64,000 nucleotides of DNA. Origin: an uncultured Lachnospiraceae bacterium. Lineage in GTDB: Bacteria; Bacillota; Clostridia; Lachnospirales; Lachnospiraceae. Both the position numbers and the translations under genes were made by a program. The stretch covers positions 21,951-85,950 of the forward strand of contig CATLGW010000005.1 of NCBI GenBank assembly GCA_949948715.1, written 5' to 3'. Every line of letters starts with the position of its first letter. The first letter of the stretch is position 1. Positions 2,605 to 14,092 of this stretch are shown here, piece by piece. The notes below the pieces were generated by a model that was not told the origin of the DNA, made no database searches, and saw nothing but the letters and a program-made list of their open reading frames with translations.

Positions 2605-4149
2605 ATGGACAAGTCAAAAATTTCTAAAATGTGGATTGCCGATCAGGGGGACGGCACCTATACAAACCCGATTCTGTACACGGATTACTCGGATCCGGAC
2701 GCTATCCGCGTGGGGACAGATTACTTTATGATCGCATCCAGCTTCTGCAATACGCCGGCTGTGCCGCTTCTGCACTCAAAGGATCTGGTGAACTGGAAGG
2801 TTGTAAATTATATTATTGATAAGCTTCCCTTCCCCTATTATGATAAGCCCAAGCACGGGTGCGGTACCTGGGCGCCGTCCATCCGCTTCCACGAGGGCGT
2901 TTACTATGCGTTTATTCCCCTGCCCGACGAGGGGATTATGATGTGTAAGACCGAGGATCCCTTCGGGAAATGGAGCGAGCCCTCCTATGTGCGCAAGGTG
3001 GTGGGCTGGATCGACCCCTGCCCTCTGTGGGACGACGACGGGAAGGCTTATATGGCCACGGCCTTTGCCAGAAGCCGCATCGGATTTAAGAGTATGCTGT
3101 ATATGTCGCCCATCGAGCCGGATTGCTCCGGAGTGCTGGACGACGGCCGGTTCATCTACGACGGCCATGAGACCCAGCCCACCATAGAGGGTCCAAAGCT
3201 GTACAAGAGAAACGGCTATTATTACATATTTGCCCCGGCGGGGGGCGTGAAGCCGGGCTGGCAGACGGTTCTGCGCTCAAAGAATATCTACGGCCCCTAC
3301 GAGGAGCGTATCGTGATGCGCCAGGGGAACACATCGGTGAACGGCCCTCACCAGGGCGCATGGGTGGACACGCCAAGCGGCGAGGATTGGTTTATCCACT
3401 TCCAGGATGTGGGAAACGCGGGCCGCATTATCCATCTGCAGCCCATGCGCTGGGAGGACGACTGGCCCATCATCGGAGTCAACGATACGGAGGGCTGCGG
3501 CGAGCCTGTGATGCGATACAAAAAGCCTGACGTGGGCGGCGTCTTTCCCGTCGACGCGCCGGAGGACAGTGATTTCTTCGAGGGGGACAGGCTGGGACTG
3601 CAGTGGCAGTGGAACGCCAACTACAGGGAGGAATGGTATCATGTGGGCGGAGGGAAGCTGACGCTGTACTCTCAGATTTCCGATGAGGCGTCCCAGCTCT
3701 GCGATGTGAAGAATCTTCTGATCCAGAAATGGCCGGCCCCGGAGTTTCGGATCACCACCTGCCTCCATCTGGGGCAGATGAAGGACGGGGATGTGGCCGG
3801 GCTGGTATCTCAGTGCGGGCATTACACCGGTCTGATGGTTGTGAAGGAGGGGGACAGACTTGCCCTGCAGCAGCGCACCGGGCATTGGACCAAGGACGAC
3901 GAGGTGCGGGAGAAGCTGGGGGAGGTGACCCAGGATACGGTGTATCTGCGCATGACGGTAAAGGATTCCAAGACCGTGTCCTTTGAGATCGGACAGGATG
4001 AGGAGCATTTTGCCCCTGTGGGAAGCCCTGTGGAGGCCGCGCCGGGACGCTGGGTAGGTGTGAAAGCCGGATTGACCGTCTTTAATGAGAAGGGACAGAC
4101 GGGGGGCAGCATCCAGGCGGATTATTTCGTGTTTGAGTCCCTGGACTGA
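2605..4149 (+). CDS. GH43 family glycoside hydrolase (beta-xylosidase/arabinofuranosidase type)
   Basis: YTNPILYTDYSDPDAIRVGTDYFMIASSF, GTWAPSIRFHEGVYYAF, IEGPKLYKRNGYYYIF; C-terminal beta-sandwich region; no signal peptide seen. Confidence 0.93.
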   Translation: MDKSKISKMWIADQGDGTYTNPILYTDYSDPDAIRVGTDYFMIASSFCNTPAVPLLHSKDLVNWKVVNYIIDKLPFPYYDKPKHGCGTWAPSIRFHEGVYYAFIPLPDEGIMMCKTEDPFGKWSEPSYVRKVVGWIDPCPLWDDDGKAYMATAFARSRIGFKSMLYMSPIEPDCSGVLDDGRFIYDGHETQPTIEGPKLYKRNGYYYIFAPAGGVKPGWQTVLRSKNIYGPYEERIVMRQGNTSVNGPHQGAWVDTPSGEDWFIHFQDVGNAGRIIHLQPMRWEDDWPIIGVNDTEGCGEPVMRYKKPDVGGVFPVDAPEDSDFFEGDRLGLQWQWNANYREEWYHVGGGKLTLYSQISDEASQLCDVKNLLIQKWPAPEFRITTCLHLGQMKDGDVAGLVSQCGHYTGLMVVKEGDRLALQQRTGHWTKDDEVREKLGEVTQDTVYLRMTVKDSKTVSFEIGQDEEHFAPVGSPVEAAPGRWVGVKAGLTVFNEKGQTGGSIQADYFVFESLD

Positions 4150-4177
4150 GAGGAGGCAAAGGATTCGGAAATACCTC

Positions 4178-4206
4178 TTGCTTTTTCTCCTCCTGTCCGC
4201 TATAAT
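4178..4206 (+). promoter_or_regulatory. Promoter driving a long leader upstream of nrdD
   Basis: TTGCTT, 17-nt spacer, TATAAT. Confidence 0.65.
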
Positions 4207-4213
4207 GAGGTAC

Positions 4214-4440
4214 AAGATATAGGAGTTGTTGAGATTTTTATCACTAAATCTAGTGCCTGTGCTTGGGAGGAATGGACGAGGGGTACGAACCGGAGGACTT
4301 TGCCCCGCGTATCCCGGATTTCACGGGCTGATTGGGGCTGTCGCAAGAAGCGCGCATACAACATAGGGAGAGTTAGGGTCTGAAAAGCTTTGATGTGTTG
4401 TGTGCTTTCCGCTTTTTGCGGCATTTCTCAATTTATTTAA
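4214..4440 (+). ncRNA. Candidate structured leader RNA or independent ncRNA, class unknown
   Basis: About 230 nt noncoding with several local stems (cacta/tagtg; ggggtacg/cgtatccc; gcatacaacat/atgtgttgtgtgc) downstream of a strong promoter. Confidence 0.4.
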
Positions 4441-4471
4441 GTCACGGCAAAGCCGTGACATGGAGGTTAGC

Positions 4472-6604
4472 ATGAGGATTCAAAAGCGAGACGGCCGGGT
4501 GGTTTCCTTCGAGGAGGAAAAGATAGTGGACGCTATCAACAAGGCCAACAATGAGGTGGAGAAAAGGGAGCGGGCTTCCCAGGAGCTGATCCGGGAGATT
4601 CTGGACATCGTGAGGAAGGACGGCTGGGACAAGGAGCAGCTCACCGTGGAGCATGTCCAGGATCTGATCGAGGAGTGTCTGGTGGAGCACAACAAATACG
4701 TTCTTGCCAAAAAATATATTCTGTACCGCTACCAGAGAAGTCTGCTCCGGAAGTCCAACACCACCGACGAATCCATCTTAAGGCTGATCCGCAATGAAAA
4801 CAAGGAGCTGGCGGAGGAAAATTCCAACAAGAACACCCGTCTGGCCTCCACTCAGCGGGATTATATCGCCGGGGAGGTGTCCCGGGATGTCACCAGGCGA
4901 CTGCTTCTGCCGGAGCACATCGCCCTGGCCCATGACAACGGGGTGATTCATTTTCACGACGCGGATTATTTTATACAGCCTATTTTCAACTGCTGCCTCA
5001 TCAACATTCAGGATATGCTGGACAACGGCACCTCCATCAACGGGAAGATGATCGAGTCGCCCAAGAGCTTTCAGGTGGCGTGTACCGTCACCACTCAGAT
5101 CATCGCTGCCGTGGCCAGCAATCAGTACGGCGGCCAGTCCGTGAATATCAGGCACTTAGGCAAGTATCTGCGGAAGAGCCGGGAGAAATTCAGAGAGCAG
5201 TTGGACAGGGAGTTTGGGGATTCCATGGATTCCGCCACCAAGGAGACGGTGGTGGGGCTGCGGGTGCAGGATGAGTTAAAGAGCGGCGTACAGACCATTC
5301 AGTACCAGATTAATACTCTGATGACCACCAACGGCCAGTCGCCCTTTGTCACCCTCTTTCTGCATATAGACGATGCCGATCCTTATGTGGAGGAGACGGT
5401 GCAGATTATTGAGGAGATATTGGAACAGCGCATCCGGGGGACGAAGAACGAAAAGGGAGTCTATGTGACCCCCGCCTTTCCCAAGCTGGTGTATGTGTTG
5501 GATGAAAATAACTGCCTGAAGGGCGGGAAATATGACCATGTGACCAGGTTGGCAGCCAGATGCTCCGCAAGGAGAATGTACCCCGATTATATCTCCGCCA
5601 GGAAAATGCGGGAGAATTACGAGGGCAATGTGTTTTCCTGCATGGGCTGCCGTTCCTTCCTGTCGCCCTGGAAGGATGCCCGGGGAAATTACAAATGGGA
5701 GGGCCGGTTCAATCAGGGCGTTGTGAGCCTGAATCTACCTCAGATCGGTATTCTGGCCAAGGGGGATGAGGAGAAGTTCTGGAAGCTTCTGGATGAGCGG
5801 CTGGAGCTGTGCCGCGAGGCGTTGATGTGCAGGCATAAGGCGCTCCAGGGCATTGTCTCCGATGTGAGCCCCATCCACTGGCAGTACGGCGCCATCGCCC
5901 GGCTGAAGAAGGGGGAGAGAATCGATCCCTATCTGGAGGGCGGGTACTCCACCCTCTCCCTGGGATATATCGGTCTGTATGAGACCACTTTCCTGATGAA
6001 GGGGATGAGTCATACGGCTCCCCAGGGAAAGGAGTTTGCCCTGAGGGTTATGGACCGCATGAAGGATGCCGCCGCCGGGTGGAAGGAGGAGACGGGGCTG
6101 GGATTTAGCCTCTACGGCACTCCGGCGGAGTCTCTGTGTTACCGCTTCGCCCGCATCGACCGGGAAAAGTTCGGGGATATCGAGAATGTGACGGACAAGG
6201 GCTACTACACCAATTCTTATCATGTGGATGTGAGGGAGCCCATAGACGCTTTCACAAAATTTACCTTTGAGAGCGAATTTCAGAATAAATCCTTGGGCGG
6301 GGCCATCTCCTATGTGGAGGTTCCCAATCTGACAAACAACCCGGAGGCCGTGGAGGAAGTGATTCGTTTTATCTACGACAATATTCAGTACGGGGAGTTT
6401 AACACCAAATCCGATTACTGCCATGTGTGCGGTTATGACGGGGAGATTCAGATCAACGACAACAACGAGTGGGAGTGTCCCCAGTGCCATAACAGGGATC
6501 ATTCCAGGATGAATGTCACCAGGAGGACCTGCGGCTATCTGGGAGAAAATTTCTGGAATTCGGGAAAGACGAAGGAGATCAAGGCGAGGGTGCTTCATCT
6601 ATGA
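4472..6604 (+). CDS. nrdD: Anaerobic ribonucleoside-triphosphate reductase
   Basis: ATP-cone N-terminus MRIQKRDGRVVSFEEEKIVDAI; glycyl radical C-terminus RRTCGYLGENFWNSGKTKEI; ORF extends upstream to 4400 but SD ggagg precedes ATG 4472. Confidence 0.96.
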   Translation: MRIQKRDGRVVSFEEEKIVDAINKANNEVEKRERASQELIREILDIVRKDGWDKEQLTVEHVQDLIEECLVEHNKYVLAKKYILYRYQRSLLRKSNTTDESILRLIRNENKELAEENSNKNTRLASTQRDYIAGEVSRDVTRRLLLPEHIALAHDNGVIHFHDADYFIQPIFNCCLINIQDMLDNGTSINGKMIESPKSFQVACTVTTQIIAAVASNQYGGQSVNIRHLGKYLRKSREKFREQLDREFGDSMDSATKETVVGLRVQDELKSGVQTIQYQINTLMTTNGQSPFVTLFLHIDDADPYVEETVQIIEEILEQRIRGTKNEKGVYVTPAFPKLVYVLDENNCLKGGKYDHVTRLAARCSARRMYPDYISARKMRENYEGNVFSCMGCRSFLSPWKDARGNYKWEGRFNQGVVSLNLPQIGILAKGDEEKFWKLLDERLELCREALMCRHKALQGIVSDVSPIHWQYGAIARLKKGERIDPYLEGGYSTLSLGYIGLYETTFLMKGMSHTAPQGKEFALRVMDRMKDAAAGWKEETGLGFSLYGTPAESLCYRFARIDREKFGDIENVTDKGYYTNSYHVDVREPIDAFTKFTFESEFQNKSLGGAISYVEVPNLTNNPEAVEEVIRFIYDNIQYGEFNTKSDYCHVCGYDGEIQINDNNEWECPQCHNRDHSRMNVTRRTCGYLGENFWNSGKTKEIKARVLHL

Positions 6605-8635: not shown

Positions 8636-10552
8636 ATGCGTTACCTGGGAAACAAGACAAAGCTGCTCCCCTTTATCGAGAGCGTGATGAAAAAATATCA
8701 TATCCAGGGTCAGGTGTTTGCGGATCTCTTTGCGGGCACGGGCTCCGTGGGGGATTTCTTTAAGGACAGGTATCATGTGGTGGCAAACGACTATATGCGT
8801 TTCTCCGGAGTGCTGTGCGCGGCGAAGCTTTGGAACAGGCGGCCCCCCGCCTTTACCAGGTTTAAGAGGCTGTATGGGTCGGAGCCCTTTTCCTGGCTGA
8901 ATGCCAGGGAGTACGGCCCCCGGGAGGATTTTTTTCTCTATGAGAACTACACGCCCCGGGGGGGACGGATGTATCTGACGGAGAAAAACGCGGCCAGGAT
9001 AGACGGGATGCGCCAGGACATTGAGGAATTTTACAGGGATAAGGATATAAAGGAGGAGGAATATGTGTTCCTTCTGGCCTCTCTACTGGAATCCGTGCTG
9101 AAGGTGTCCAACACCTCCGGCACCTACCAGGCTTATTTCAAGTTCTGGGAGCAGCGCTCCCTGAAGGACTTTGTGCTGGAGCCCCTGGAGATGAGGGAGG
9201 TGGCGGGCAGGGGATCCCTTAGGAGGGTCAACCGGATCTACAGCGAGGACTCCAACGCTCTGGTCCGCAGGATTTCCGGGGACATCGCCTACATAGACCC
9301 TCCCTACACCATCACCCAGTACGCCAATTCCTATCATCTTCTGGAGACCTTGGCCTGCAATGACAGGCCGGAGATCTTCGGGAAGACCGGGAGGCGCTCG
9401 TCCAGAGAGCTTTCGGGCTACTCCAATAAGCAGCAGGCCATCATAGAGTTTGAGGATCTGTTCCGGCAGCTTGACTTTGACCATGTGTTGGTGAGCTACA
9501 GCAATCAGTCCATTGTGCCCCTGGAGAAGCTGGTGGAGCTTGCCAGGCTTTTTGCCGTGGATCACGCGGTGTATGTGGAGACCAACGACTACAGGGAGTA
9601 TGCCACCAACAATTTGAGCGGCAAGGGGGCGGAGGAGGGACTGAAGGAGGCCTTGATCTATTTCAGAAAGGACCGCACCATTCACAAGTCCCCCCTAAAT
9701 TACTCCGGCAGCAAGGATAAGCTCCTGCCTCTGATCTATAAGCTTCTGCCCAAGCGGGTGAGTACCTTTGTGGACGCCATGGGGGGAGCCTTCAATGTGG
9801 GAGCCAATGTCCTTGCCACCGGGCGGGTGGTGTACAATGAATATAATCCTTACGTATACGGGATTGTGGATATGCTGGTGAACACTCCCAGGGAGGAACT
9901 CATCGGCCGGGTGGATCGTCTGGTGGCGGAGTACGGGCTTTGCAGGGAGAACAGGGAGGCCTACCTTGCGCTGCGGACGGCCTTCAATGAGAACAAGGCC
10001 CCCCTGTATCTGTTCACCCTTCAGATTCACGCCTTTCAGAATATGATTCGGTTCAACAGCCGGATGCAGATGAACACGCCTGTGGGCAACAATGAGTGGA
10101 ACGAGGGCACCAGGGACCGCATCCGGAATTTCCGGGTAAAGGCCCCGGAATATGAGATGCGCCTGGGTCCCTATGAGGAACTGCTGGAGGCGCTCCCGGA
10201 GGTTTTGGGACTTTCGGAAATCCCGGCGGATACGGTGTTTTATTTTGACCCTCCCTATTTTATCACCAACGCGGAGTACAACGACGGAAAACGGGGGCTG
10301 GAAGGATGGGACGCAGGTCAGGAGCGGGCGCTTTTGGACTTTTTGTCCGTACTCCATCAGCGGGGGTACCGCTTCCTGCTCTCCAATGTGCTGAAGCACA
10401 ACGGCAGGGAGCACGGGATGTTAAAGGAGTGGATTGCGGAAAACGGATTCCATGTGACCCAGATCGGCCGGACGGGCATCAAATATCCCCGGACGGAGGT
10501 GGTGGTGACCAATTACAGGCCTGTGGGAGCAAGAGAAGAGTTTCTGATTTGA
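8636..10552 (+). CDS. Tandem (two-domain) D12-class N6-adenine DNA methyltransferase, M.FokI/M.LlaI-like
   Basis: Domain 1 FADLFAGTG and YIDPPYT; domain 2 FVDAMGGAFNVG and YFDPPYF; about 638 aa. Confidence 0.9.
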   Translation: MRYLGNKTKLLPFIESVMKKYHIQGQVFADLFAGTGSVGDFFKDRYHVVANDYMRFSGVLCAAKLWNRRPPAFTRFKRLYGSEPFSWLNAREYGPREDFFLYENYTPRGGRMYLTEKNAARIDGMRQDIEEFYRDKDIKEEEYVFLLASLLESVLKVSNTSGTYQAYFKFWEQRSLKDFVLEPLEMREVAGRGSLRRVNRIYSEDSNALVRRISGDIAYIDPPYTITQYANSYHLLETLACNDRPEIFGKTGRRSSRELSGYSNKQQAIIEFEDLFRQLDFDHVLVSYSNQSIVPLEKLVELARLFAVDHAVYVETNDYREYATNNLSGKGAEEGLKEALIYFRKDRTIHKSPLNYSGSKDKLLPLIYKLLPKRVSTFVDAMGGAFNVGANVLATGRVVYNEYNPYVYGIVDMLVNTPREELIGRVDRLVAEYGLCRENREAYLALRTAFNENKAPLYLFTLQIHAFQNMIRFNSRMQMNTPVGNNEWNEGTRDRIRNFRVKAPEYEMRLGPYEELLEALPEVLGLSEIPADTVFYFDPPYFITNAEYNDGKRGLEGWDAGQERALLDFLSVLHQRGYRFLLSNVLKHNGREHGMLKEWIAENGFHVTQIGRTGIKYPRTEVVVTNYRPVGAREEFLI

Positions 10553-10583: not shown

Positions 10584-11570
10584 ATGAAGCTGATGCTGGA
10601 CAATCGGAGGGATAACGGGTATCCGTCCGTCTTTGAGAAGGCGGATGTGACGCTGCCTGCGGGGGAGGACAGGAGGGCGTGGTTTGAGGAGCGGATTCTG
10701 GCGGCTCTCAACAGGTACAATCCCAGGCTGCAGGTGACGGAGGTGGTTTACGGGGATATCAGGGCTCGCTTTCCCTCCGCCAGGGCGGGCATCACCTCCG
10801 GCGTGATTTACCAGGAGCGGGAAATTGCGTTTGAGGAGATGGAAAATTACCGGATCAGGGGCTATGCCTCCTGGGTCGAGGGCGGCTCCTTTATAGCCGG
10901 GCGGATCAGGGCCTATGTCTATATGCCGCTGCCGGCAGTACAGGGAAAGAGCGAGGGCAGAAACACCCTGGTGGCTCAGACCTTGTTTCCCACGCTCATC
11001 GACTATATGGGGGAATATCTGGATTCCCCCGGCTATGAGCCCGCCAATCATCCTGTCTTTTTTGTAAATGTCAGAACGCAGGAGATCTCTGCCTCCAGCA
11101 CCAGGAAGGATTTGGCCTCTCTGGCTCTGGTGGGGATTCGCTATGTCGACGTTTTTGGGGAGGAGCGCAGGAGGCCTCTTTACTTAGAAGAAGTGCCCGG
11201 GGAGCTGAGGGAATTTCTGATGCAGTATGACGAGAGATTTCAGGCAAACTATGACCAGGGGGCAGAGCGTTATGAGAATCCGTATCTGCGCATCTTCTTT
11301 AGAGAAAAAAGGCTTATAATCAAAAGCGACGCAGCGGTGGAGAAGCTGGTCTTTAAGGAAGGGCTGTATGATTTCGGCGGCAGCGGGGAGAAATTCTATT
11401 GGATGAATATCTATCCCATGGCCATAGCGGCCTATGAGCAGGGATATCAGGTGGATATCACGGCCTACAGGGAGTTTGTGGAATATTATGAGGCGCGGTT
11501 TTCGCCCTACAGTGAGAAGATGGCAAGGTGCAGGACGCTGCTTCTCTACTTTGAGAAATATATGGTGTGA
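10584..11570 (+). CDS. Uncharacterised restriction-associated protein, 328 aa
   Basis: ORF inside the methyltransferase/McrB-like operon with SD ggagggg; no motif recognised. Confidence 0.7.
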   Translation: MKLMLDNRRDNGYPSVFEKADVTLPAGEDRRAWFEERILAALNRYNPRLQVTEVVYGDIRARFPSARAGITSGVIYQEREIAFEEMENYRIRGYASWVEGGSFIAGRIRAYVYMPLPAVQGKSEGRNTLVAQTLFPTLIDYMGEYLDSPGYEPANHPVFFVNVRTQEISASSTRKDLASLALVGIRYVDVFGEERRRPLYLEEVPGELREFLMQYDERFQANYDQGAERYENPYLRIFFREKRLIIKSDAAVEKLVFKEGLYDFGGSGEKFYWMNIYPMAIAAYEQGYQVDITAYREFVEYYEARFSPYSEKMARCRTLLLYFEKYMV

Positions 11571-11669: not shown

Positions 11670-12668
11670 ATGCACGAACAGAAAATTTATTTCGGAGCCC
11701 CCGGCACGGGGAAGAGCCATCTGATTCGGGAAAGATTACAAGGCATGAGAGGGGACAAAATTTTTCGGGTGACCATTCACCCGGAGTACGCCTACTCTGA
11801 CTTTGTGGGACAGCTTCTGCCGGAGAACAGGCGGGAGGGCGGCGTGCACTTCCCCTTCCGCCCGGGTCCCTTTACGGAGGCCCTGGCGGAGGCTTTCGCC
11901 GATTTCGCCCAGGATGTGTGCCTGGTGCTGGAGGAGCTCTCCCGGGGAAATGTGTCGGCTATCTTCGGCGATATCTTTCAGTTGTTAGACAGGGACGGGC
12001 ATTTTAGGAGCAAATACCCCGTGAGGAACAAGAATGTCGCCGACCGGATACCGGAGCTATCCACCGACGAGATTTGGCTGCCTTCCAATCTGAGCATCCT
12101 GTGCACCGTGAACATGAACGACCAGAACGTGTTTCCCATGGACACGGCTTTCAAGAGGCGTTTTGACTGGGAGTATGTGTCCGCGGAGCCGGCCAGGAAT
12201 CCGGAAACGGGGGAGGTTTTGGCGAGGCTCAATAACCCCGGGATTTCGGTGGCGGTGGACGGGGAGAGGGAGAATGACCTGGAAACCACCTGGCAGTCCT
12301 TCTATATGGCCCTGAACCGCTTTATCACCGACAGGAGAGAGGGGCTGGGCCGCAGCGAGGACAAGCAGGTGGGGCAGTTTTTCATTGACTTTGGGGACAG
12401 CCTTACGAAAAGCTCCCACTCTCATGACCCGCAGGAGACGCAGGGGGCAAAACAACGGGTGGACGAGCTGATCCGCAATAAGCTCCTTTTGTATCTGTGG
12501 CAGGATGTGCAGGGAAACTCCGCCTTTCAGGGCAGGGCCAGGCTGTTTGACGATTCCGTGAACAGCTATGATGATCTGTACGGCAGGTACGGCCGGGAGA
12601 GGGTCTTTGGGGAGGTTTTCCTGGAGCGATTTCTCAGGCCCCAGAGGGAGCGGTATCCCTATGTCTGA
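11670..12668 (+). CDS. McrB-like AAA+ GTPase restriction subunit
   Basis: Walker A YFGAPGTGKSHLI; Walker B VCLVLEELSRGN; TVNMNDQNVFPMDTAFKRRFDW. Confidence 0.92.
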   Translation: MHEQKIYFGAPGTGKSHLIRERLQGMRGDKIFRVTIHPEYAYSDFVGQLLPENRREGGVHFPFRPGPFTEALAEAFADFAQDVCLVLEELSRGNVSAIFGDIFQLLDRDGHFRSKYPVRNKNVADRIPELSTDEIWLPSNLSILCTVNMNDQNVFPMDTAFKRRFDWEYVSAEPARNPETGEVLARLNNPGISVAVDGERENDLETTWQSFYMALNRFITDRREGLGRSEDKQVGQFFIDFGDSLTKSSHSHDPQETQGAKQRVDELIRNKLLLYLWQDVQGNSAFQGRARLFDDSVNSYDDLYGRYGRERVFGEVFLERFLRPQRERYPYV

Positions 12669-12765
12669 GAAGGGGTGCGGGAGAGGTTTTTATTCTGCAG
12701 GCTTTGCGCCGTGCAAGGCCTGAACCGTCGGCCGCTTTCAAAGGGCAGCGGCAGGGAGGATAGAG

Positions 12766-14092
12766 ATGATCATTGTCTGGGCCAACGACGGACAGCCCTG
12801 TGAAAAGAGAAGAATAGAGGAATTGGGATTTTCCATAAATCCTGCCAGGGATTTGAGAAGCGGACGCCCGGGGGAGATTTCTGTTTGGGGGGGAGGTCTT
12901 TGTCGGGGGAAGCGATTCCGGCCGGGAGCTTTCGGCTCCGGGGGATACCGCGGCATTGCAGGTTCGGGAGAACGCTTCCTGTGAGGTCTACGATTTTGTG
13001 GGTTTTCTCACCAATGAGGACAATGATTTGATGGCGGTGTTTCCCAAGCATTTTGCGGTGCAGAATCCGGAGGCGGACGCGGCCCTTTTATTCCGTGTGA
13101 TCAACCGGCACCGGCAGCGCAGACCGGATTGCTACATAGGGGAGAGGTACGGGGAGGCCTTTTCCTCCGACTATCCCTTTGCGGCCTTTTTCGGCATCTA
13201 TGAATATTACAGCAGATTCGGGCTGTATGTGCAAAGCAGGCAGTTTGTGAAGCCGGGCACGGGGGGAAGGGTAAGCTGGCGGGATACCCTGAGGCTGGCG
13301 GGAATATATCTGTCGGGGGAAGAGCCGGTCCTTTACCCCTTGTACCACAGGACAAAATACGTGTTCTCCGATTTCCTGACGGAGTGCATGATCTTTGCCA
13401 TCGACTATACCCTGGAGAAGTTCGGGTGTTTTCTGGGGCTGCCCCGGACGGGGAGGGCGTTTCCCGAGACGGATTTTCTAAGTGAGAGGGAAGCCGTGAC
13501 GGAGACGCTGATACGCCTGAGAGAGGGGGAGTTTCGGGATGAGCAGCGGGGGCTTTTTGATCACTTGATCGCCTATTTTTCCTCGATTCGGGAGGGAGGC
13601 GGCTTCTATTTCAAATTCTACGGTTTTTCTTCCGTGTGGGAGGATATGGTGCGGGAATATCTCAACCGGAATTTCAGCAGGGCTACGGAACAGGGGATGG
13701 TCTTTGACAGAAGGAGGGCGGCGGGGCTTACCTTTGAGAAGACGGCCTTTTGTGTAAATCTGGCGGCGCCGGGTCAGAGGATAGAGCCGGACGCTTACGC
13801 CGTGTGGGGGGAGGAACAGTATATCCTGGACGCCAAGTATTACACGGCAGTGGGCGGACTGGATTACAAGCAGACGGTATACCATATGTTCCTGTGCGGT
13901 ATGAAAAGGGGAGCGGATGGTGAAAATCCGCTCTTTCGAAGGACGCACACGGCCCTGGTACTGCCGGGTAGGAAGCGGGAAAGCAGGCTGCATTTAAAAC
14001 CGGATCCCCGCTTCGGCAGGGGCCTGGAGGGCGTGAGGATATGGGAGGAATACCTGGATATCCGGGAGGTAATGGAGGACTACGACAGATAG
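12766..14092 (+). pseudogene. LlaJI/McrC-like restriction endonuclease subunit, frame-interrupted at a G7 tract (frame 1 12766-12984, frame 2 12857-14092)
   Basis: ATG 12766 has an SD (gggagg); removing one G at 12887-12893 joins ...EISVWG to GEVFVGGSDSGREL...; nuclease motif IEPDAYAVWGEEQYILDAKYY. Confidence 0.75.

Follow-up and report, generated by a model that had tools for sequence, protein, structure and literature searches.

The question raised by this locus is whether a restriction nuclease gene that is read in two frames has been broken, has been misassembled, is switched on and off by a homopolymer, or is decoded across the break. The window (the whole stretch of 64,000 nucleotides that was analyzed) carries on its forward strand, as it does all features described below, an ATG at 12766 with a good Shine-Dalgarno sequence, GGGAGG (12754–12759), 6 nt before it. 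The frame opened by this ATG (12766–12984) encodes 72 aa, with a conserved part, MIIVWANDGQ...RDLRS, at about 12766–12861, and stops at TGA 12982–12984. The nuclease frame is offset from it by one base; it is preceded by TGA 12854–12856, is open from 12857 to 14092, and has as its first start codon TTG 12956, which lacks a clear Shine-Dalgarno sequence. The two frames overlap by 128 nt, and TTG 12956 lies 26 nt 5' of the stop codon of the upstream frame. Seven G residues (G7) occupy 12887–12893, and reading past one of them would fuse both frames into a protein of 442 aa. An earlier note on this DNA had given these coordinates, with TTG 12956 as the only nearby start and a fused product of about 440 aa, and all of this was reproduced.

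Judged by its sequence, the operon is of the LlaI type, a restriction-modification system of a known kind that acts against phages, and has four genes. The first gene (8636–10552) encodes a double D12-class N6-adenine methyltransferase, the modification subunit, and is intact. It matches Pfam MethyltransfD12 over two stretches (2.5e-62) and PADLOC MTase_II (1.1e-221), and TIGR00571 (dam) matches its C-terminal half. Its start is ATG 8636, which opens the conserved MRYLGNK; the ORF lister places the start at GTG 8528, and relatives align from about residue 25–37. The second gene (10584–11570), also intact, encodes a protein of 328 aa that shares position and homology with the ORF that leads the restriction genes in LlaI-type cassettes, for which reason we presume it to be the specificity subunit. 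Searches of Pfam, NCBIfam, and PADLOC gave nothing above cut-off for it. It is kept at the same place in four related loci (L001, L002, L014, and L044), and the ORF that precedes the AAA gene of the Lactococcus plasmid pUCCL629C shares 33% identity with it across 171 aa. Its AF2 model is confident (pLDDT 84) and gave no match when compared with the PDB, so that the protein possibly has an undescribed specificity fold. The third gene (11670–12668) encodes an intact McrB-like AAA+ motor subunit of 332 aa, with homology from ATG 11670, matches to AAA_5 (3.6e-10) and PADLOC REase_II (3.7e-41), a McrB-type GTPase as its best solved relative (1.3e-13), and 55–73% identity to its relatives and the LlaI-like copy. 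The fourth is the nuclease gene, whose open frame (12857–14092) belongs by alignment and by matches to Pfam RE_LlaJI (5.8e-6) and PADLOC REase_II (9.5e-7) to the LlaJI family of PD-(D/E)xK nucleases. The PD motif EPD and the DAK motif are both present and are conserved in the alignment; an AF2 model built for the nuclease on few aligned sequences reached a pLDDT of 37, too low for use.

The window has these features of a LlaI-type system: an adenine methyltransferase that unites two D12 domains, a set of three restriction ORFs, one of which encodes a short McrB-like AAA protein (about 340 aa in this type), and a PD-(D/E)xK nuclease of the LlaJI/McrC family. One uninterrupted nuclease frame, a further feature of the type, is absent in the window. 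The locus is thus best described, from sequence comparison, as a homologous LlaI-type operon with a broken or misassembled subunit, at most a candidate for a working member. LlaIB (337 aa) and BsuMIB (343 aa) occur in cassettes of three restriction ORFs (PMC1459862), and on this ground we assign the block to the LlaI arrangement. Our search of plasmids gave one record, pUCCL629C (NZ_PP589679.1), in which this block lies next to a gene of the AbiA family. The comparison with LlaI was made through this block, whose LlaI identity rests on its layout and its AbiA-family neighbor rather than on comparison with pTR2030, and the details of LlaI come from secondary mentions and the pUCCL629C record. 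Read in this manner, the LlaI operon of Lactococcus plasmid pTR2030 has the same order of a D12-type adenine methyltransferase, a homologue of the 328-aa protein, a short AAA ATPase, and a LlaJI-family nuclease, and the nuclease of pUCCL629C is built like that of the window, with a short N-terminal element of the same kind, then the linker, and a main domain that begins with DFxGF. The window differs from the LlaI-like copy in sequence (39% identity for the nuclease and 55% for the AAA protein), and from LlaI in lying on a chromosomal contig rather than a plasmid and in its interrupted nuclease frame. The AAA and nuclease genes of the pUCCL629C record are intact. Its methyltransferase region (2979–4813), by contrast, gives an alignment of several separate segments, and the annotation there consists of short fragments; this region is possibly decayed, or the record may have a sequencing problem. 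LlaJI (pNP40) and McrBC likewise combine an AAA motor with a PD-(D/E)xK nuclease subunit, and the window nuclease matches Pfam RE_LlaJI. LlaJI, however, encodes a pair of 5mC methyltransferases, and its R1, of 585 aa, includes a specificity domain of its own, whereas the window has a double D12 methyltransferase, a short AAA protein, and a separate gene for the 328-aa protein before the AAA gene.

Does the short upstream piece belong to the nuclease? Each close homologue whose sequence was readable across the junction has an N-terminus like that of the window (MIIVWANDG...GF...RD) and stays in one frame from there. Both pieces are in one frame through the junction in L001, L002/L046, L004/L043, L005/L044, L006/L045, L014, and the LlaI-like copy of pUCCL629C (L047). 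The first piece, MIIVWANDGQPCEKRRIEELGFSINPARDLRS, is conserved among the close relatives, in which the reading frame continues unbroken from it to the (D/N)FxGF motif that opens the main domain, and the pattern MI...A..G......GF...D extends to the LlaI-like copy (MIVDYAIEGAPIDKSKYQELGFTFGDLDVRK). More distant homologues have a short N-terminal element and the same open frame through the junction. Since homologues carry the N-terminus in the same frame, the window gene is interrupted and not mis-started, and a nuclease that simply begins at TTG 12956 was ruled out. The earlier note had proposed a nuclease gene split by a one-base offset and had named a lack of any conserved N-terminus in homologues as evidence against it; the homologues instead match the MIIVWANDG... 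piece.

Among the relatives, the gene order is common to Mediterraneibacter massiliensis (L001), a congeneric genome (G045, locus L044), an assembly labelled Acetatifactor (L002), and a viral contig (L014). L002 is evidently one record with L046 of genome G095 (contig C97), since their lengths and their tblastn matches agree. In G045 and in a further genome, G033, the gene 3' of the nuclease is identical in kind to that of the window, so the site is stable in both. A second genome of the window species was not found, and the closest nuclease is 62% identical. From the start codon to the FVGF motif the distance in relatives varies from 47 to 99 aa, the longest being that of G033. The 99-aa N-terminal part of the G033 protein up to FVGF (L045, contig C67, 81–380) holds an internal repeat, DSGWTEERGAAEDAGWAEDSGWTEESGAA, in a length-variable linker. 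The lesion of the window gene sits in a linker whose length and sequence vary and which is tolerant of change. The nuclease gene of G095 has a separate one-base break at the PD motif (at about L002:5490–5515), outside any homopolymer, where it reads QYVSWMPMPP as compared with QYIELDAYA in relatives; this looks like loss (or error) and not like switching.

Conservation fixes the first frame to about 12861 and the second from about 12985. A codon-usage likelihood trained on this genome is flat within about 5 nats for switch points over 12857–12893, slightly favoring 12857–12881; the best switch point is 12857–12866, with 12881 worse by 1.5 nats and 12887 by 4.5 nats. The G7 run is the longest in the compatible interval (about 12857–12893) and is for this reason the likeliest site of slippage, and of the +1 offset. 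A second run, GGGGG at 12870–12874, lies inside the same interval, and it or non-homopolymer positions are possible sites as well.

We consider it somewhat better than an even chance that this is a recent single-base frameshift in a LlaI-type nuclease gene, an ordinary loss-of-function allele with restriction off or nearly off and the methyltransferase intact; the weights given to this and three other readings are a matter of judgement and not of calculation. One G would have been gained, most likely in a G run of the variable linker between the conserved N-terminal element and the main domain, so that translation from the proper start would terminate after 72 aa. The nuclease subunit would then be absent, or made in trace amounts only from the weak TTG 12956. 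Methylation would continue, as the earlier note had supposed, since the methyltransferase has a gene of its own and this gene is intact, and restriction would be lost or much reduced. The change would be recent, since the remainder of the nuclease gene is clean, and it would be reversed only through rare slippage, the allele not being an evolved switch. Restriction by LlaJI in vivo absolutely depends on each of its two restriction subunits, of which R2 is equivalent to the nuclease subunit here (PMC1459862). By analogy with this requirement, we expect the window allele to restrict weakly if at all and to retain methylation. We infer, rather than show, that activity is lost, that the change is young, and that it arose in the organism and not in the consensus. 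In support of loss, the other genes of the operon are intact and the same gene is independently broken in G095. Counting against it, a single lesion with retained catalytic residues also fits an error or a reversible state, and the predicted product of TTG 12956 would retain the whole nuclease domain.

The main rival is a sequencing or consensus error, by which the extra base would be an assembly artefact and the nuclease gene of the organism intact; we regard this as unlikely, yet it has more in its favor than the remaining two. It would account for a single lesion in an otherwise clean frame of 1.2 kb, there is a homopolymer within the interval, and the source assembly is a draft of 54 contigs that is 67% complete. 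Against it stands the behavior of other G runs in this genome, sampled in 20 stretches and the window (464 kb; 356 kb of coding DNA). On the coding strand G7 occurs at 0.056 per kb, and the chance of one in a given 123 nt is about 0.7% (3.6% for G6). Twenty other runs of G7 or longer are embedded in intact ORFs with a length of 250 aa or more, a frequency near one per 18 kb over the 356 kb of coding DNA, which argues against a systematic homopolymer error. A frame switch was found at none of the 15 scorable coding-strand G7 runs in the 464 kb, the run of the nuclease gene being unscorable by the same test. A general homopolymer error of the assembly was therefore ruled out; a local one is possible.

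A minor rival is that slippage in the G run toggles the nuclease on and off at constant methylation, the headline of the earlier note, and we consider it improbable. Restriction-modification genes are phase-variable in some other bacteria, and those switched by homopolymers in Campylobacter, Helicobacter, and Neisseria resemble the present case in that the reading frame of a restriction gene depends on how long the G run within it is. The run of the window is likewise inside a reading frame, within a tolerant linker. It differs from theirs in being only seven long, in not being conserved, in being common in intact genes, and in being seen at one length only, in the single genome found for its species. 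The linkers of all homologues checked, close or distant, lack a G run of six or longer ahead of the FxG motif, which speaks against a switch. Intact genes of this GC-rich, G-skewed genome contain G7 routinely, so that such a run is not a mark of hypervariability here and not by itself evidence of a switch. Another species, G095, has a non-homopolymer break in the same gene. As to length, seven meets the lowest published cut-off, that of a Campylobacter scan (at least 7), whose authors warn that mutability near it may be too low for true switching, and is below the Campylobacter tracts shown to switch, which have 8 or more Gs and mostly 9–10 (PMC6321876), and below the cut-off of a Neisseria study (at least 9; PMC5953494). 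A young, genuine contingency switch in a Lachnospiraceae-like gut bacterium, acting on the nuclease subunit only of a LlaI-type system, with the methylation mark kept, is in our estimate distinctly improbable. The alternatives that the earlier note had offered beside its switch, decay of the endonuclease and sequencing error, are likelier than the switch itself. A scan of IMG/VR with an 18-mer adjoining the tract gave one AT-rich phage match without extension, which was set aside as a chance match.

The last rival is that a low nuclease level is produced on purpose, by slippage of the ribosome or the RNA polymerase in the G run or by a restart at TTG 12956. Such decoding would make use of the overlap of the two frames and of the position of this TTG just before the upstream stop codon, but it is very improbable, because no homologue checked has overlapping frames, so that the arrangement is not conserved, because +1 shifting at GGG glycine codons is to our knowledge not common as a recoding signal in bacteria, and because the TTG has no clear Shine-Dalgarno sequence.

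If the break is real, as a recent frameshift would have it, the strain keeps methylation without restriction, which is a usual path to a lone methyltransferase. If G095 is counted as well, independent breaks would then affect two of the five copies at genus level, suggesting frequent loss of the nuclease.
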